Below, in pieces: positions 21,551 to 33,718 of a stretch of DNA of 40,864 nt; positions within the stretch are counted from its first letter, which is position 1, and every line of letters starts with the position of its first letter. Below the pieces are notes generated by a model, which had not been told where the DNA came from, searched no databases, and worked only from the letters and a program-made list of their open reading frames with translations. The stretch spans positions 1 through 40,864 of the IMG/VR virus record IMGVR_UViG_3300023174_000318. One strand, written 5' to 3'. A program made the position numbers and the translations under genes. This DNA comes from a virus.

Positions 21551-22462
21551 TTATTCAGTCTCACCAACGAAGACAGGCTCGTCATCTTCAGAATAATCTT
21601 CAGAGACGGGGATGCCTTCATCGGGGAGTTCATCCGAGGCGATTGTAGTCGACTCGAATTCTTCGAGCCCAACGGTTTCATCGTTGAGCCAGTCGTGCAC
21701 AATCTGCACGAAAGTTGCGGTGTCACACTGGAGGGGAAGCCCACCGATGCGTGACTTGGCATCGACAAGTGCGCTGGGGTGCGACTGGACGAGGCGTTCG
21801 TAGGTGGTGTTCTTACCAGAGCCTTTGATTTCGTTAGTGACGTGAGCCGTAACGTGCATCAGTTTCTGGATACCATCGTTGTTCTTAGGTGTGAAGCCAG
21901 GCTTTGTGACCTTGACCTTGCGGTGGTCAACAGTCTCGCGTTCGTGTGCTACGAGGATGATGTGCAATCCGTTGATGGATTGGAACATCTCGACAGCGCG
22001 ACGACACGCATCGCCAAGGGGCTTGTACAGGCGAGCGTCAATGCCTTCTGTGGGGATTTCGTCGCGGGTAGCGCCTACATCCTCACGGAACAGCTCGTCA
22101 AGGAGCATGTCGGCAGCAGTGGAGAACTCGTCAATGATGACAGCGCCAATGTTGTCGAAGCCTTTGTCGCCTTTACGGATTGCTTCAGCGATAAGTGCGA
22201 GGTCGGAGAACTGCTGGTACTGGACGCGAACTACATCGTCGACCATGTGTGCGTGGTTCTCCAGCGACACCCAGCCTTCGCGCGTGTCGATGTACAGTAC
22301 CTTCTTACCGCCTGCAATGTACTTAGCAAGCCCAGTGGCGAGGACAGTCTTGCCCGTGCCAGGTTTGCCATACAGCATGCACATGAGCGTCTTGTTGACG
22401 CGCTCAGTGCCGAGGTCAGTCATGCGGGACATAATCTCATCTAATCGTTTATTTGTGCTCAT
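21551..22462 (-). CDS. RecA-fold ATPase, Sak4-like recombinase
   Basis: 303 residues. Walker A GKPGTGKT (32-39), VLYIDTREG (sensor-like strand after it), Walker B GAVIIDEFS (Asp111, Glu112), and IILVAHERET fit the single-domain RecA-like AAA_24/Sak4 family, which anneals or pairs single strands with an SSB partner. The last 40 residues are acidic and probably flexible. The ATG shares one base with the Cas4-like stop (TAATG). Recombination and/or replication restart is the likely role. Confidence 0.7.
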   Translation of the reverse strand: MSTNKRLDEIMSRMTDLGTERVNKTLMCMLYGKPGTGKTVLATGLAKYIAGGKKVLYIDTREGWVSLENHAHMVDDVVRVQYQQFSDLALIAEAIRKGDKGFDNIGAVIIDEFSTAADMLLDELFREDVGATRDEIPTEGIDARLYKPLGDACRRAVEMFQSINGLHIILVAHERETVDHRKVKVTKPGFTPKNNDGIQKLMHVTAHVTNEIKGSGKNTTYERLVQSHPSALVDAKSRIGGLPLQCDTATFVQIVHDWLNDETVGLEEFESTTIASDELPDEGIPVSEDYSEDDEPVFVGETE

Positions 22463-24863: not shown

Positions 24864-25033
24864 TAGTTCTTTCCTTTGATAAGTGCGAACATCTTGTTGA
24901 TACGAATACATCCGTCACAGTCGCAGTCCTCTGCCCAATCCCAGTTGTCTGCCAGCATTTCGTTAAGCAGCCCAATGATGCGTTCACGCTCGTATTCTTT
25001 ACCTTGCTCAAACCATGCTTTGCTATCGGTCAC
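24863..25033 (-). CDS. Small acidic protein of the ERxRII...ALIKG family with Cys cluster
   Basis: 56 residues from GTG 25033, which forms GTGA with the SNF2 helicase stop. It has EYERERIIGLLNEML, then DCDCDGC, then MFALIKGKN. The same first and last motifs occur in the next gene and at 27028. The Cys triplet may bind metal. Function unknown. Confidence 0.65.
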   Translation of the reverse strand: MTDSKAWFEQGKEYERERIIGLLNEMLADNWDWAEDCDCDGCIRINKMFALIKGKN

Positions 25034-26937
25034 AACATCTCTCCATTCTTCATAGCCTCAAGCATGCTACTCGCCGTAAACTCTGCTTGCTTCTCTTCGG
25101 TCATAGTATCCGCGAATTCGGACACCATCTGTTCTTTGCGGTGAATCGTGTTCGACATCCAAGTATCGACAGAGGCAGGGATACGGTACACATATACATC
25201 GTTCTCTTCTGTCTGCCCAATGCGGTCAGTCCGAGCATACGCTTGGTCACGCTTGCCAGGGTTCCATTCCTCGTCAAGGATGTGTGTGGCAGTAGCATCG
25301 GTCAGGTTGAGTCCCGTACCACCAGTCTTGTAATTGCACAACACGATGTCCCATTGGGGTTCCTCGCCACAGCCACGGAAGAAGTTACGCTTCACCGCTT
25401 GACGCATAGGTCGAGTTGTCTTGCCTGTGAGCGTGGCAACACGCAAACCTTTAGCCTCAAGGCGCTTAGCGAACTCTTCGAGCGCCGTAGTGAATTGACT
25501 GAACACTACCTGTCGTCTGCCTTCCTCGTGGATGGAGAGAATAATGTCCATCGCTTCATCGAACTTAGCAGACTCGCGTACCTCGCTACCGACAGAGAAG
25601 ATGACATTGCCCTCGAAATCTTTGAGCTCGATACCGCCAGCCCACACATTCGCTTGGCGCTTGCGGGTGATGAGGGAGATGAGGTGCATGATAGTCATGG
25701 CTTCCCCACTCTCCAGCATGATTTGAGCGCGTTCCGATAACTGTCGAATAATTTTGTATTGCTTCGGGTGGCTTTCCTTGTCAATGTCAACACGAACAAT
25801 GTGTACGCGCTGGACAGGCAACACAATACCCGCATCGGTTCGGCTACGCGCAAGGTAGCGACCAGCAATCAAAGGGCGAAGGTTCTCCAGTTGCCCATCA
25901 CGGAATTCCATTTTGCCTGAATGGTAGTTCTGGATACAGAACGATGAGGCGAAAGATGTCTGGCTGTTGAACAGAATGGGGTCGCACAGGTGCAACAGGG
26001 CGTAAATGTCGAGGGGGGAGTTGAGCAGCGGGGTTCCTGTAGTAAAGCACAGGTTCTTGACGCTTTTGGTGGCAAGGTGGCGGTCAAGCATAAATGAGTA
26101 GCGAGTTTTGCCGTCTTCGTGGATAGTCCATCCGCACGAAGGGCATGCCTTGGCAATCTTGACGCGAGTCTTGACATCAACATATAAACCTTTGATGAAG
26201 TGCCCGCAGTTGGCGCAAGTGTTGTCAACCTTGCACAACATCTCGATGTAACGGAAGTTGGCGCTCGATATGTTCTTGAGGTTGTGTGCCTCGTCAATGA
26301 TGATGGTGTCGAGTTGCCATTGCATGAACTTAGCGAGCAGGTCGTTGTCTCTGCGCCAGATTTCATAGTTGACGACAACAACGGCAGAATCTTGGGCGAG
26401 TATCTCGTCCATCATGCTGTGCCGTACTGTCGGCTTCTTCTTGTATAAGTTGTATACCTTGCGGTGCGGGGCAAGGGTCATGACCTCGCCAGCGAATTGG
26501 TCTGTGATGTCAGCCTGACACACGATGAGCACACGCTTGGCTTTCACAAGGTCGAGCCAGCCAATGCTCTGTCGTGTCTTGCCTAAGCCCATGCCATCGC
26601 CAAGTATCCAACGCTTAGCACCAGCCCCGAACAGTACACCGTCCCATTGGAAGGGCAGGATACCTTGATACCACACCTTGTCCTGAGCGATACGAGTGAA
26701 CTGTTCTTTGAGGCGCTCGACATCAGCAGTAACTACCTCTGCTTGTTCCTTAGCCTCAGCTCGTTTCTCTTCACGCTCAATCCGCTTACGCTCATCACGC
26801 ATGAGAGCGCGTGTGCTCGCCTCTTTCTTGTCAGCGGTAGTCAGTTCCCCAAGCAAGGCTTCGAGTTGCTTACGCTTACGCTCGCGCTCCTCTGCCTGTT
26901 GATGGAGTTCGCGCGTCAGGTCATCAACGCTTGCCAT
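25030..26937 (-). CDS. SNF2-family helicase with zinc-finger insertion
   Basis: 635 residues. The N-terminal 75 residues are a charged coiled coil. Helicase motifs: Walker A GDGMGLGKT (113-121), DEAH (215-218), TGTP (300-303), and motif VI QAYARTDRIGQ near 580. Between DEAH and TGTP lies CANC (241/244) and CPSC (265/268), a C4 zinc finger inserted in the first RecA lobe. SNF2-like enzymes translocate on duplex DNA; in phages they are linked to replication or repair. It overlaps the small TM gene upstream by 14 nt and the small gene downstream by 4 nt. Confidence 0.88.
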   Translation of the reverse strand: MASVDDLTRELHQQAEERERKRKQLEALLGELTTADKKEASTRALMRDERKRIEREEKRAEAKEQAEVVTADVERLKEQFTRIAQDKVWYQGILPFQWDGVLFGAGAKRWILGDGMGLGKTRQSIGWLDLVKAKRVLIVCQADITDQFAGEVMTLAPHRKVYNLYKKKPTVRHSMMDEILAQDSAVVVVNYEIWRRDNDLLAKFMQWQLDTIIIDEAHNLKNISSANFRYIEMLCKVDNTCANCGHFIKGLYVDVKTRVKIAKACPSCGWTIHEDGKTRYSFMLDRHLATKSVKNLCFTTGTPLLNSPLDIYALLHLCDPILFNSQTSFASSFCIQNYHSGKMEFRDGQLENLRPLIAGRYLARSRTDAGIVLPVQRVHIVRVDIDKESHPKQYKIIRQLSERAQIMLESGEAMTIMHLISLITRKRQANVWAGGIELKDFEGNVIFSVGSEVRESAKFDEAMDIILSIHEEGRRQVVFSQFTTALEEFAKRLEAKGLRVATLTGKTTRPMRQAVKRNFFRGCGEEPQWDIVLCNYKTGGTGLNLTDATATHILDEEWNPGKRDQAYARTDRIGQTEENDVYVYRIPASVDTWMSNTIHRKEQMVSEFADTMTEEKQAEFTASSMLEAMKNGEML

Positions 26938-27028: not shown

Positions 27029-27186
27029 TACTTGCTCTTCTCGATAAGTGCGATGAGGTCTCCAAGAGCACCATCAGCACCCATCTCGTTGTAATACACA
27101 GCCTCAAATGCTTCTTCGCTTTGCAGTACGGCAATTATTCTTTTGCGTTCGATGTCTCGCGCAATTTTTGTAAACGGTATGTTCAT
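27028..27186 (-). CDS. Small protein of the ERxRII...LI family
   Basis: 52 residues. ATG 27186 and stop 27028 each share one base with neighbours. DIERKRIIAVLQ near the start and DLIALIEKSK at the end match the family of 24669 and 24863, but there is no Cys cluster. Function unknown. Confidence 0.6.
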   Translation of the reverse strand: MNIPFTKIARDIERKRIIAVLQSEEAFEAVYYNEMGADGALGDLIALIEKSK

Positions 27187-30196: not shown

Positions 30197-30225
30197 AGCG
30201 TACCACACTTTTAAACTTTTGTCAA
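30197..30225 (-). promoter_or_regulatory. Strong sigma70-type promoter for the leftward early operon
   Basis: Minus-strand TTGACA (30220-30225), 17-bp spacer, TACGCT (30197-30202). AT-rich spacer. Transcription would start near 30190 and read the whole small-gene operon. Confidence 0.8.
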
Positions 30226-30232
30226 ACTAGTG

Positions 30233-30259
30233 CGCGTGTCGTGTTCCGCGTGTCGTGTT
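30233..30259. repeat. Tandem 13-bp direct repeat upstream of the early promoter
   Basis: CGCGTGTCGTGTT occurs at 30233-30245 and again at 30247-30259, one base apart, just upstream of the -35 of the leftward promoter. This is a typical place for an activator or repressor site. Confidence 0.55.
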
Positions 30260-30283
30260 GCGATTCCGACAAAACCCGATTAG

Positions 30284-30324
30284 CATGAGTCCTTGAGGGA
30301 CTCATGAGGGAGAAAATGAGTCCC
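30284..30324. repeat. ATGAGTCC inverted-repeat cluster
   Basis: CATGAGTCC (30284-30292) pairs with GGACTCATG (30298-30306), and ATGAGTCCC returns at 30316-30324. A hairpin or a set of binding sites is possible. Confidence 0.45.
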
Positions 30325-30400
30325 TTTTCTCATGCCAATTCTCACGCGGGGCGTGTTGCCCAGTAATAGCGCGGAAAAACCGTCCCGGGCTAATTCTCAC

Positions 30401-30429
30401 TTGACAAGGTATATTTTCGGGGGTATGCT
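30401..30429 (+). promoter_or_regulatory. Consensus rightward promoter in the gene-free region
   Basis: TTGACA (30401-30406), 17-bp spacer, TATGCT (30424-30429). It is preceded by an AATTCTCAC repeat copy. Transcription would start near 30436 and meet a terminator after about 40 nt. Confidence 0.6.
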
Positions 30430-30435
30430 CCATCA

Positions 30436-30481
30436 AGGAGCATAACCCCCGAAAAGAAGAAAGAAAGTCGGGGGCTTTTTT
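30436..30481 (+). ncRNA. Candidate very short RNA (promoter followed at once by terminator)
   Basis: The promoter at 30401-30429 would start this RNA; it begins with AAGGAG-like sequence, then CCCCCGA, a purine-rich loop and TCGGGGG-C-TTTTTT. About 46 nt with no ORF. It may be a small RNA or simply the product of a conditional terminator. Confidence 0.35.
30446..30481 (+). terminator. Intrinsic terminator with competing upstream arm
   Basis: CCCCCGA (30446-30452) pairs with TCGGGGG (30468-30474), followed by six T. The same CCCCCGA can pair with TCGGGGG at 30417-30423 as part of a longer hairpin (30414-30431 with 30437-30455), which would prevent terminator formation. Confidence 0.7.
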
Positions 30482-30485
30482 ATTG

Positions 30486-30640
30486 GGTCGTGCAACCCTG
30501 ACCACGAGCCCTAGCCCCAAAGGGGCGGGCACGGGTCGGGCGGGTTGCGTAAGCCAGTCAAGGTGTAGCGAGTCGAGCGGATTGGAAAAAGACGGATACA
30601 GGGGTAATCCAGTTCGATACCCACGCCCCGAAAAAGCGGG
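30486..30640. other. GC-rich, strongly foldable non-coding stretch
   Basis: GCAACCC near 30490 can pair with GGGTTGC near 30541; inside lies GCCCC-AAA-GGGGC flanked by a second GCCC/GGGC pair. Further on GGGTA and TACCC form another stem, next to a GTTCGAT resembling a T-loop. It lies downstream (leftward) of repeat copy A. A structured RNA is possible; no tRNA fold fits. Confidence 0.4.
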
Positions 30641-30650
30641 CAGACAGTTT

Positions 30651-30665
30651 GTCTATTTGATTCCA
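30651..30665 (-). repeat. Cassette repeat copy A
   Basis: Minus strand TGGAATCAAATAGAC, one mismatch to the consensus TGGAATCAAATGGAC. It lies between the terminator of the 30722 gene and the GC-rich stretch, so its downstream partner has no ORF. Confidence 0.7.
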
Positions 30666-30679
30666 TTGTTGGGCACGAC

Positions 30680-30699
30680 AAAACCCCCCTTTCGGGGGG
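30680..30699 (-). terminator. Leftward intrinsic terminator
   Basis: Minus strand CCCCCC-GAAA-GGGGGG followed by TTTT, after the 30722 gene. Confidence 0.8.
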
Positions 30700-30721
30700 C
30701 TCTGCCTTAGCGTACTAGGGT

Positions 30722-30916
30722 TTAGGCGTATTCTTCGACGCTCTTAGCGCCGTAGCCGACCGTGTTTCCGTTGTAGTCGCGGATATTGCGGGTAGTGAAT
30801 TCTCCCGAGGTGGCGAGGGCGTCTGCCAAGGCGTAGAGTGCTTGTGCAACTTGCCAAGGCTCTAGCATTGTTTCGTTGCCTAGTTCGATTTCGATTTTGT
30901 ATTTTTCGATTTTCAT
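30722..30916 (-). CDS. Small hypothetical protein, cassette gene 1
   Basis: 64 residues. GAAAGGCATGAA precedes the ATG. A beta start (KIEKYKIEIELGN), a helix MLEPWQVAQALYALADALATSG, then strands. It is the sole gene between repeat copy B and a terminator. Not recognised; resembles short phage proteins with an alpha/beta layout. Confidence 0.65.
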   Translation of the reverse strand: MKIEKYKIEIELGNETMLEPWQVAQALYALADALATSGEFTTRNIRDYNGNTVGYGAKSVEEYA

Positions 30917-30971
30917 TTCATGCCTTTCTGTCGTGTTGTAATCAGTCTGCCCGAAAGCAAGCGGTCAGTTC

Positions 30972-30986
30972 GTCCATTTGATTCCA
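30972..30986 (-). repeat. Cassette repeat copy B
   Basis: Minus strand TGGAATCAAATGGAC, exact consensus, 56 nt upstream of the ATG of the 30722-30916 gene and just after the hairpin of the preceding cassette. Confidence 0.8.
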
Positions 30987-30995
30987 GATTTGAGG

Positions 30996-31027
30996 CTTGA
31001 GGCACCCCGAAGGGTGCCTCAAGTTTT
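30996..31027. terminator. Terminator hairpin with UUCG loop
   Basis: CTTGAGGCACCC (30996-31007) pairs perfectly with 31012-31023; on the minus strand the loop is TTCG. A T run follows only on the plus side (31024-31027), so the hairpin may act in both directions with different strength. Confidence 0.65.
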
Positions 31028-31223
31028 ACTCAGTATCCAAGCCCTCCGCCATGGCGCACTCTACACACTGGCTCTCAGTAGCCGACATCGACTCGAGAAT
31101 GGGGGCAAAGCACTCATCGCACTCAGCCAGTAGGGTGAGGTCATTGCCCTCGTAGCGGGCTAGGCGGTCGCCAAAGAAAATGACTTTGCCCGCGTCAATC
31201 AGTTCCTGTAATTCGTGGTTCAC
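31026..31223 (-). CDS. Small zinc-ribbon protein, cassette gene 2
   Basis: 65 residues, GTG start with GAAAGG upstream. CDEC (residues 35-38) and CVEC (53-56) make a probable zinc ribbon; acidic overall. It lies alone between repeat copy C and a hairpin. Function unknown. Confidence 0.65.
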   Translation of the reverse strand: MNHELQELIDAGKVIFFGDRLARYEGNDLTLLAECDECFAPILESMSATESQCVECAMAEGLDTE

Positions 31224-31275
31224 GGTGAACCCCTTTCTGTCGTAGCCAGTCTGTCAGGGAGCAGACAGCCAGTAA

Positions 31276-31290
31276 GTCCATTTGATTCCA
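31276..31290 (-). repeat. Cassette repeat copy C
   Basis: Minus strand TGGAATCAAATGGAC, exact consensus. The flanks to the left (CAAATC) are shared with copy B. It is 53 nt upstream of the GTG of the 31026-31223 gene. Confidence 0.8.
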
Positions 31291-31304
31291 GATTTGAGCG
31301 AAGC

Positions 31305-31334
31305 GAAAAAAGAGAGCCCCCGAAGGGGCTCTCT
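31305..31334 (-). terminator. Leftward intrinsic terminator with UUCG loop
   Basis: Minus strand AGAGAGCCCC-TTCG-GGGGCTCTCT followed by TTTTT, after the 31341 gene. Confidence 0.85.
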
Positions 31335-31340
31335 CCTTCC

Positions 31341-31622
31341 CTAGCCTTTGACTGCTTTTCTCGTGGCCTCAAGAATGATTTTTTTCTTGGTCGTTTTGGG
31401 CAATTCGTAGAGGCCCAAACCGATTGCTTTGAGAGCCTCGTCAATGGTGTCGAGCAATTCCCAAGACCGGAAAAGCGCGTTCTCCTCTTCGACGGTGAAG
31501 TGCCAGTAGTCTCCGTCTGAGTTGATGACTCTAGAGGGGTTGCCCTCTAGGTGGCTGGAGAGAATGTACGCGATGATTCTCGCGTGTTCCTCTCTCGTGG
31601 GGGTGATGTTGATGGTGTCCAT
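31341..31622 (-). CDS. Small hypothetical protein, cassette gene 3
   Basis: 93 residues. AGAAAGGCACACG precedes the ATG. Helix (EEHARIIAYILSSHLE), strand (DGDYWHFTVEEE), helix, basic tail (KTTKKKIILEATRKAVKG). It stands alone between repeat copy D and its terminator. Not recognised. Confidence 0.65.
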   Translation of the reverse strand: MDTINITPTREEHARIIAYILSSHLEGNPSRVINSDGDYWHFTVEEENALFRSWELLDTIDEALKAIGLGLYELPKTTKKKIILEATRKAVKG

Positions 31623-31636
31623 CGTGTGCCTTTCTT

Positions 31637-31651
31637 GTCAGAATTTCTGAC
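31637..31651. promoter_or_regulatory. Palindrome in the leader of cassette gene 3
   Basis: GTCAGAA-T-TTCTGAC is a perfect 7-bp inverted repeat just upstream of the ribosome site. It could be a regulator site or a translational hairpin. Confidence 0.4.
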
Positions 31652-31686
31652 TACCTACAATCTACGCGCAGGCAGGCAGTCAGTTA

Positions 31687-31701
31687 GTCCATTTGATTCC
31701 A
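31687..31701 (-). repeat. Cassette repeat copy D
   Basis: Minus strand TGGAATCAAATGGAC, exact consensus, followed by TAACTGACTGCCTGC. It is 65 nt upstream of the ATG of cassette gene 3. Confidence 0.8.
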
Positions 31702-31710
31702 TATGAAGTT

Positions 31711-31749
31711 AAAAAAATTCCCCCGACCTAAGCCGAGGGAATTTTTTTT
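31711..31749. terminator. Bidirectional terminator after the 16-residue ORF
   Basis: AAAAAAATTCCC (31711-31722) pairs with GGGAATTTTTTT (31737-31748), so there is a T run on both strands. Confidence 0.8.
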
Positions 31750-31798
31750 AGGCATCGTGTCGAGGGCATCGCCACGGGGTATCGCATTGACAATTCAT
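31748..31798 (-). CDS. 16-residue Cys-rich peptide ORF
   Basis: GAAAGGCCAGTC precedes ATG 31798 exactly as in the other cassette genes. The product is MNCQCDTPWRCPRHDA with three Cys and one His. The stop codon lies at the foot of the terminator. It may be a real micro-protein, a leader peptide or a relic; a hairpin (31822-31847) separates it from the gene upstream. Confidence 0.4.
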   Translation of the reverse strand: MNCQCDTPWRCPRHDA

Positions 31799-31821
31799 GA
31801 CTGGCCTTTCTGTCGAATGGT

Positions 31822-31847
31822 GGGGGGTGGCCTTGCGACCACCCCCC
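31822..31847 (-). terminator. GC-rich hairpin between cassette gene 4 and the micro-ORF
   Basis: GGGGGGTGG pairs with CCACCCCCC around an 8-nt loop. No T run follows on the minus strand, so partial termination or processing is more likely. Confidence 0.5.
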
Positions 31848-31852
31848 GTTGA

Positions 31853-32338
31853 TTAGTTGACGTATCCTGAGAAGGAATCGTCATCCATTTCGGCCGCATA
31901 CCACATTGCGTCACGCTGGAAGTCGCTAGCGTCCATGCCCGCAACCATATCGATTGCGGATTCGATTGCTTCTTCTTCGTCGACGGCGTCAACGCTGATG
32001 GTGTAGGAGACGGGAATCGTCACCGTGAAGGAGACATCGACATCGAAGTTCTTGCGACGTCGAGGACCGCCTAGTGCTTCGACCATGTCATCGAAGATTT
32101 CGCAGTGATGGGCGCGTTCTGCGAGTTCCTGTGCCTTAGCCCAAAAATCGGTTAGGCGGTGGTCGTCTCCCATAATCTGGGTGTAGCGGAGACGGTCAAT
32201 TTCTCCCCGCAGTTCTGCGATAGTTACCTGCTGGTCAGCCAATTTAGTGACGCAATCAGCGTGGATTTCGGCAGGTGGTGGTGGTGTATCAGAATCACCC
32301 GATGGGGACTCTAGGGGGGTGTTGTCTTGGTCATTCAT
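31853..32338 (-). CDS. Hypothetical protein with coiled coil, cassette gene 4
   Basis: 161 residues. Pro-rich acidic N-terminus, a coiled coil (VTKLADQQVTIAELRGEIDRLR), then a beta region (FDVDVSFTVTIPVSYTISVDAVDEEEAIESAIDM) with a strand-helix pattern like that at 28770. GAAAGGCAATAACA precedes the ATG. It is the first leftward gene after the divergent region, behind repeat copy E. Function unknown. Confidence 0.65.
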   Translation of the reverse strand: MNDQDNTPLESPSGDSDTPPPPAEIHADCVTKLADQQVTIAELRGEIDRLRYTQIMGDDHRLTDFWAKAQELAERAHHCEIFDDMVEALGGPRRRKNFDVDVSFTVTIPVSYTISVDAVDEEEAIESAIDMVAGMDASDFQRDAMWYAAEMDDDSFSGYVN

Positions 32339-32363
32339 TGTTATTGCCTTTCATTATGTTTGA

Positions 32364-32383
32364 TTAGGGACGGGTGTCCCTAA
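32364..32383 (-). promoter_or_regulatory. Leader hairpin / operator half
   Basis: TTAGGGAC-GGGT-GTCCCTAA, 8-bp perfect stem in the leader of the leftward gene. Its right arm forms GTGTCCCTAA, which is repeated inverted at 32505-32514 on the other side of the divergent region. Confidence 0.45.
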
Positions 32384-32468
32384 CCTGTGTTGCGTTCCCT
32401 GTGTAGTTTTCAAGTGCCTTTCGCTCTTTGGCGATAACCCCAATCTAGATTGATGTTGTATCGAGTTA

Positions 32469-32483
32469 GTCCATTTGTTTCCA
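32469..32483 (-). repeat. Cassette repeat copy E
   Basis: Minus strand TGGAAACAAATGGAC, one mismatch to the consensus, in the divergent region. It is the most upstream copy of the leftward cassette series. Confidence 0.7.
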
Positions 32484-32998: not shown

Positions 32999-33185
32999 AG
33001 GGCAACCTTTGTTTGCTAAGCCCATTGAACGGTTCCACTACACGTCATCCAAATACTTTGTTGCAATTGAAGATAACGAACGTGGCACGGTTGCGTTGAT
33101 GCCGATTGGTTGGGTTGGGGAGCCGTCTTTGATTATTGCCAAAATTCGGTTGGAAGACCTCAAAGCATTGTTGAAGCAACTGTGA
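32916..33185 (+). CDS. Small hypothetical protein
   Basis: 89 residues; TAGGAGAAAGA precedes the ATG. The first 27 residues are Ser/Thr/Lys/Glu-rich and probably disordered, then a beta core RFHYTSSKYFVAIEDNERGTVALMPIGW and a helix. It overlaps the gene before by 83 nt and the next by one base (TGATG). Not recognised. Confidence 0.6.
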   Translation: MSEKNEVATSSKSEKETSTNTISGTAGEGQPLFAKPIERFHYTSSKYFVAIEDNERGTVALMPIGWVGEPSLIIAKIRLEDLKALLKQL

Positions 33186-33718
33186 TGAATGTAACAAAAA
33201 ACCCTTATGTGCGGCTCCGCGAGCTATGCGGCTTGACACAGAAAGCTTTTTGCGAACGAAACGACTTCGGCAAGATGACAATGGTGTACCTGGAAGCAGG
33301 CATTTACACGAAGGTTAGCGAACGACAGAATATTGCCCTAGGTAAAGAGTGCGTTAACCGTGGGGTGGACGCTAAAAGCATACTGTCGGACGAATACGGC
33401 ACGGAAAGTTTGACTGTGGCGTACATTATGTGGCGTAGCGAGCGCCGTAAAAACGCCCCTGAACGTGCAGATTTCCCCGACAAGTTGCGAAGCAGTGCTG
33501 AGGTAAGCCCGATGGCGAACTTTGTGAAAGACATGACGGGGAGCATGCAACGCTTTTGTAAGGTTGTAAAAGTGCAACCAGCCACCATCACAAGGTACGC
33601 TAAAGGTGAGACGGCTTCGATGCCCCGCGAACTTCGCACCGCATTAGAAGAAATGGGTTGCACCAACATTGTGGAATTAGCGAAAGCCCAAGCTGACTGG
33701 ATACAGGAGACATTGTGA
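33185..33718 (+). CDS. DNA-binding protein with two HTH-like domains
   Basis: 177 residues from ATG 33185 (TGATG with the previous stop). The N-terminal half has VRLRELCGLTQKAFCERNDFGKMTMVYLEAG, an XRE-like HTH; the C-terminal half repeats the idea with VKDMTGSMQRFCKVVKVQPATITRYAKGE. It sits upstream of the TerS-like gene, so a late regulator or a packaging partner are both possible. Confidence 0.65.
   Translation: MNVTKNPYVRLRELCGLTQKAFCERNDFGKMTMVYLEAGIYTKVSERQNIALGKECVNRGVDAKSILSDEYGTESLTVAYIMWRSERRKNAPERADFPDKLRSSAEVSPMANFVKDMTGSMQRFCKVVKVQPATITRYAKGETASMPRELRTALEEMGCTNIVELAKAQADWIQETL

Follow-up and report, generated by a model that had tools for sequence, protein, structure and literature searches.

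The question raised by this locus is why one short sequence, the 15-mer TGGAATCAAATGGAC, stands repeatedly before small genes in one region of the virus record IMGVR_UViG_3300023174_000318, whose 40,864 nt were analysed as a whole and are called the window here. On balance we lean towards the view that the 15-mer forms the core of a promoter-upstream box, which heads insulated early units with interchangeable cargo. The recognisable proteins of the window include portal, major head, DNA polymerase and primase/helicase; structural genes occupy the rightward arm, while the leftward arm, which carries the repeats, has small genes followed by replication genes. The label "early" is given tentatively to these repeat-bearing leftward genes because of the gene content of their arm. 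The helicase (25030-26937) has its nearest annotated-phage match in the helicase of Microbacterium phage Shocker (48% identity), and a search with it brought 55 related loci from uncultured phages. Several relatives are partial contigs; G002 and G003 carry identical cassettes and are not independent. No relative of the helicase was found in bacterial genomes, and neither a DNA search of the repeat region against annotated phages nor a search with the 32-nt consensus gave a match.

An earlier note on this DNA had reported five minus-strand copies of the 15-mer. All five are present (copies E to A, from first to last; Table 1), with no further match in the window at up to three mismatches, and this is in excess of expectation, since 100 shuffled windows contained 0.98 such matches on average and in no case (0/100) reached five. 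The same note described the bases after the repeat as alike, which is true for copies A to D (NAACTG/NTACTG) and less so for copy E (TAACTCGATACAACATC). As it had also proposed, copies A to D lie behind terminator hairpins, which have energies of -17 to -24 kcal/mol and are situated 11-15 nt upstream, while copy E has none. Copies B, C and D do precede genes with a GAAAGG Shine-Dalgarno sequence, at distances of 55 nt to an ATG, 52 nt to a GTG and 64 nt to an ATG, respectively; copy E lies 130 nt from the ATG at 32338. The suggested unit of repeat, leader, one gene and terminator describes copies B to D well and recurs in relatives, but it fails for copy A, which heads no gene: the gene at 30722-30916 is followed by a 577-nt non-coding stretch, and the next small open reading frame past copy A (around 30144) has its own TTGACA-N17-TACGCT promoter.

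The repeat extends well beyond this genome. Allowing one mismatch, a scan of 45 records for the pattern WGGAANCAARTGGAC found 37 sites, and none (0 sites) for the reversed pattern. Thirty-one of these 37 sites belong to 13 uncultured helicase relatives; the other six are single sites without context, mostly from records selected beforehand through a pattern scan. In the cultured phage Shocker (L221) there is one exact copy, AGGAATCAAATGGAC, about 100 nt ahead of gene 65. Chance or low-complexity recurrence would explain single exact 15-mer matches in unrelated viral contigs, which occur at approximately the rate expected for the size of the collection, but not a multi-copy, strand-restricted element in 13 related genomes, a reversed-pattern count of zero or the exact Shocker copy; shuffles, reversed pattern and half-site periods (see below) refute this explanation, and its probability is negligible. 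The 26-nt extended box was absent from the bacterial genome collection, and the box sequence was not found in the literature searched. The box is not private to the window genome and appears, judged from sequence, to be a lineage-specific signal of actinobacterial phages. It is uniform inside a genome and shifts between genomes; for example, L123 has the variant AGGRCTCAARTGGA at each of its four sites. Uniformity within genomes combined with drift between them is the pattern expected of sites which track one trans-acting binder, and copying of cassettes could add to the uniformity. Shocker also has a direct terminal repeat of about 484 bp (L221:1-484 and 44948-45431), as deduced from identical flanks and duplicated genes, and its sole box lies inside this repeat, so that each end of the genome carries it. 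The Shocker copy could suggest a role in packaging or in the terminal repeat; this was rejected because the multiple internal copies elsewhere do not fit it.

The anatomy of the box is more in accordance with recognition as DNA than as RNA. A sequence logo of 36 sites is near 2 bits over GGAA-N-CAA-R-TGGA, drops to 0 at the left edge and is weaker rightward, where NWWCTGNCTGC (positions 16-32) is partly conserved. The box is thus asymmetric and sharply bounded, with two direct half-sites (GGA...TGGA), and it varies among genomes at positions 1, 6 and 10. On the early strand the half-sites have a period of 10 in 31 sites and 11 in four, the corresponding counts on the other strand being 0 and 2, and no other period stands out. 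The four 11-bp variants, found by pattern, are each the last copy of their array (Table 1); the last copy of L120 has a changed final base, and copy A of the window has a point change with no insertion. Half-site spacing of one helical turn, 10 or 11 bp, points to DNA recognition and speaks against a transcribed RNA element, that is, an antitermination or leader signal in read-through from the junction promoter, an explanation we regard as very improbable. It would account for the box always being on the transcribed strand, and the sequence right after the box can pair, by eye, in several copies; however, there is no consistent hairpin after the box, antitermination sites precede their terminators while the box follows them, and first copies stand where no same-strand upstream gene exists.

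The context of the sites is that of a unit-heading element. A hairpin of -10 kcal/mol or stronger lies within 45 nt upstream of 31 of 41 sites, compared with 19 of 120 random positions from the same regions (the control being random positions and not other gene ends). Sites without such a hairpin are mostly first copies at the divergent junction, with no same-strand gene before them; in relatives the first copies likewise have no upstream terminator, and TACAACATC or a similar sequence then replaces the usual spacer. An element that heads units is thereby favoured over a signal linked to terminators or to antitermination. Comparison with Rfam families gave no match near the site, the weak hits being terminator-like. 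Origin iterons were also considered and rejected, as the copies are unevenly spaced and most of them go with a gene start.

Downstream of the box, a -10-like hexamer ([TCG]AnnnT) at a gap of 21-24 nt was found at 22 of 45 sites, while 2000 spacer shuffles gave a mean of 8.1 and a maximum of 17. This enrichment is supportive and is not to be read as a strict probability, because the test was chosen with the data already in view and related sites do not count as independent. No -35 accompanies it: at those 22 sites the best TTGACA match with a 16-18 nt spacer averages 2.2 of 6 positions, as against 2.4 at random. Reckoned from the -10 at this gap, the box would occupy about -49 to -35, with transcripts predicted to begin some 33-38 nt past the box, and the predicted transcript starts of copies B to D lie around 17-30 nt before the start codon, which leaves the Shine-Dalgarno sequence intact (in copy C, AGAAAGG is downstream of the deduced start). 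From among the three functions offered by the earlier note, the promoter part or regulator site fits best, because the box sits where a -35 would be and at a preferred distance from a -10-like hexamer. Promoters of extracytoplasmic function (ECF) sigma, sigma-54 and single-subunit polymerase types were rejected on account of unfitting spacing or strong spacer conservation, and scanning of the window proteins revealed neither a phage RNA polymerase nor a sigma factor.

The genes behind the box are far less constant than the box itself. BLASTP sorts the 27 open reading frames that come directly after a box into 19 families. The sole large family (seven members from six genomes) consists essentially of the genes next to the first copy, and two of its members belong to L211, where they follow different boxes. 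Internal cargo genes are mostly 30-135 aa long and mutually unrelated. The box is kept while cargo genes change, the opposite of the situation in which relatives keep the genes and lose the repeat, which the note had named as evidence against its own view. Such turnover could also mean that the units of terminator and promoter serve mainly for recombination of single-gene cassettes between phages, as homology blocks resembling the promoter early stem-loops (PeSLs) of T4-like phages. The composite structure of the units and the unrelated cargo of different genomes would agree with this, as would two homologous cassette genes behind different boxes of L211 (937 and 1973, both on the minus strand), which suggest a cassette duplication, and the Sak4-like annealing protein of the window (21551-22462). 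Nevertheless, the shared stretch amounts to merely some 15-32 bp, the box differs between genomes at the three variable positions, and the first copy, with a conserved gene and no terminator, still keeps its box. Because the copies are short and diverge between genomes, homology is an unlikely selected function of the box, maybe a by-product of it.

If the box is a promoter element, each copy would start one early transcription unit, the first at the divergent junction and later ones right behind the terminator of the preceding unit. Every later unit starting behind the prior terminator, each cassette would be insulated. The box would end approximately where a -35 would begin; a -35 is missing, and the -10 hexamer follows after 21-24 nt. 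Most likely, a protein that binds both half-sites from one side of the helix would recruit RNA polymerase to a -10-only promoter, as lambda CII does in class II activation. All early cassettes would in this way come under one control, and cargo could be exchanged behind a constant frame of promoter and terminator. We infer that the box acts as DNA and that it activates rather than represses.

As the protein which might bind the box we propose the 177-aa product of 33185-33718. It has weak helix-turn-helix (HTH) matches in each half, and its structural model (mean predicted local distance difference test score, pLDDT, of 94) contains a similar helix pattern twice; two HTH units would fit two direct half-sites. 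The N-terminal domain is XRE-like, with Z up to 7.5, a score that does not settle the matter; for the protein as a whole, Foldseek found no significant match. A profile of this protein strongly matches in every helicase relative with early-context boxes whose contig covers the gene, and also in Shocker, where the homologue is gp10. Another candidate, the IclR/TrmB-like HTH protein at 27186, was rejected since it was only weakly detected in several box-bearing genomes.

Several observations weigh against an activated promoter with this binder. About half of the sites have no good -10 at a gap of 21-24; some have instead an extended -10 (TGTGGTACGCT type, TGTGGTAnnnT) at a gap of 37-40, and in Shocker the nearest clear -10 is at a gap of 54. 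The spacer between box and -10 is partly conserved, which a simple binding site need not be. Since actinobacterial promoters often have no -35 box, its absence is no proof of activation. Distant relatives without boxes have homologues of the 33185 protein, mostly as weak matches, and its co-occurrence with the box is confounded because shared descent would also produce it. Finally, the gene belongs to the divergent operon of structural genes, and this position would be at least as natural for a repressor of early genes as for an early activator. It is accordingly possible, although we rather doubt it, that the box is a repressor operator, where the tandem-HTH protein would cover the -35 region and either shut the early cassettes at the late switch or maintain immunity. 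Asymmetric, oriented, intergenic sites together with a 177-aa two-HTH protein resemble the L5 repressor type, and the gene and copy E stand on opposite sides of the divergent junction. On the other side, the window proteins scanned included no integrase; the sites are few and restricted to promoters that mostly follow terminators, and the late strand has none of them, in contrast to stoperators, which are scattered; and partial conservation reaches into the spacer between box and -10, which also counts against an operator. The L5-type repressor, a protein of 183 residues with two domains, binds asymmetric 13-bp sites as a monomer (PMC9283540). Its solved structures gave no sequence match to the 33185 protein, more than 20 stoperators are spread over such genomes compared with five promoter-bound sites in the early region of the window, and lysogeny genes were not seen in the window; the likeness to these cluster A mycobacteriophages lies in the short oriented intergenic sites and in a protein of about 180 residues with two DNA-binding domains.

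The nearest parallels to the box, used as a promoter element, are the early promoters of phiC31 and the T4 PeSLs. In the Streptomyces phage phiC31, a CCGGGTTGCCGACTCCCTTAC-type sequence occurs in 8-10 copies, most of them between genes of the early region and ahead of early genes, and several copies are right behind strong hairpins; these repeats are phage-specific promoters active in lytic growth, a type which depends on a phage product. The box, too, is one conserved non-canonical sequence repeated before early genes. It differs in that the sequence is unrelated, that only some of the phiC31 copies follow a hairpin and that no direct-repeat half-sites were seen there; phiC31 is also temperate, and no integrase turned up in the window proteins that were scanned. 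PeSLs use strong sigma-70 promoters, whereas box sites with a -10 at a gap of 21-24 are not enriched in a -35 and have a dedicated box instead, in an unrelated phage group; hairpins before most boxes and the turnover of cargo would fit a PeSL-like unit, the box promoters being predicted from sequence. PeSLs are described as conserved composite motifs of promoter and terminator between shuffled genes (Arbiol 2010, Comeau 2014). More distant comparisons are also instructive. Cluster K mycobacteriophages have the start-associated sequence (SAS) GGGATAGGAGCCC, tied to the start codon, and an extended form (ESAS), a 17-bp imperfect inverted repeat. These share with the box the association of short repeats with gene starts; as the earlier note had correctly held, the sequence is different, and so is the position, as the box stands 52-138 nt ahead of most start codons and also precedes the predicted transcript start, while in symmetry it is a direct repeat of period 10-11. 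The lambda CII boxes, TTGC-N6-TTGC, are direct repeats close to the -35 region in a promoter that lacks a good -35. Their 4-bp repeats with a 6-bp gap make one helical turn, as TGGA-N6-TGGA does here; the half-site is another one, CII straddles the -35 while the predicted box is just upstream of it, and no CII homologue was identified. Gordonia phage Vardy (cluster DJ) has a 50-bp motif in five intergenic copies within one gene region; it likewise carries a -10 among predicted terminators, but the motif contains TATAAT and extends to the start. We would file the box, as a lineage-specific early-promoter element with insulated, interchangeable cassettes, as a variant within a known kind of system.

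Table 1. Positions of the box copies and associated features (window coordinates unless a locus is given; gap, nt between box and -10).
Feature	Position	Strand	Details
Candidate binder	33185-33718	+	177 aa; two tandem HTH (XRE-like) domains; divergent operon
Copy E (first copy)	32469-32483	-	TGGAAACAAATGGAC, 1 mismatch; divergent early/late junction
Predicted -10 of copy E	32442-32447	-	TAGATT; gap 21
Gene behind copy E	31853-32338	-	161 aa; conserved first gene; large-family member
Terminator hairpin before copy D	31713-31746	-	-19.5 kcal/mol; T-run
Copy D	31687-31701	-	TGGAATCAAATGGAC
Predicted -10 of copy D	31659-31664	-	TAGATT; gap 22
Cassette gene behind copy D	31341-31622	-	93 aa
Terminator hairpin before copy C	31306-31339	-	-23.9 kcal/mol; T-run
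Copy C	31276-31290	-	TGGAATCAAATGGAC
Predicted -10 of copy C	31248-31253	-	CAGACT; gap 22
Cassette gene behind copy C	31026-31223	-	65 aa; no relative among fetched loci
Terminator-like hairpin before copy B	30999-31020	-	-17.5 kcal/mol; poor T-run
Copy B	30972-30986	-	TGGAATCAAATGGAC
Predicted -10 of copy B	30944-30949	-	CAGACT; gap 22
Cassette gene behind copy B	30722-30916	-	64 aa; weak phrog_9027 match
Terminator hairpin before copy A	30677-30706	-	-24.3 kcal/mol
Copy A (last copy)	30651-30665	-	TGGAATCAAATAGAC, 1 mismatch; degenerate; heads non-coding region
Non-coding region headed by copy A	30200-30650	-	long bulged GC hairpin, AT-flanked palindrome, GACTCAT hairpin
Last copy with one extra base between half-sites	L115:5457
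Last copy with one extra base between half-sites	L117:5494
Last copy with one extra base between half-sites	L118:6412
Last copy with one extra base between half-sites	L211:382	-

A non-coding region of about 400 nt behind the last box is also present in L115, L117, L118, L120, L121, L123, L132, L209 and L219. Its long GC hairpin has a bulge on the 3' side and a YTTR-type loop, and the fold is kept while the sequence changes (covariation by eye), for which reason the last promoter may give rise to a structured RNA here. Behind this hairpin lies the AT-flanked palindrome GGGGGTTATGCTCCTTGATGGAGCATACCCCC (window 30420-30480, minus strand), kept in relatives with both arms changed; from its sequence it could be a bidirectional terminator or origin-like. 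A hairpin of the GACTCAT/ATGAGTC type occurs in the same region (window 30270-30340, minus strand; L115 around 5850; L117 around 5870) and partly in the corresponding non-coding region of the distant Shocker (L221 44530-44560, minus strand). A TWACCCCTAAT-like element immediately precedes the first box and recurs about 50 nt behind the last one (window around 30605 and 32495, minus strand), and it is present as well in L115, L117, L118, L120 and L121.

A wider and more speculative proposal, to which we give little weight, is that of a lineage-wide early regulon, in which one tandem-HTH protein of a new family would read the box and control every insulated cassette, and the altered last copy, often with one base of added spacing, would set a non-coding RNA unit apart. 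The box marks the sites of small early accessory genes in these actinobacterial phages, a class of genes which often holds host-takeover and anti-defence proteins. Since the box stays constant as its cargo varies, it offers a means of locating genes of this class in uncultured phages and of comparing them, and, as the cultured relative Shocker exists, early-gene control in this group becomes a testable question.

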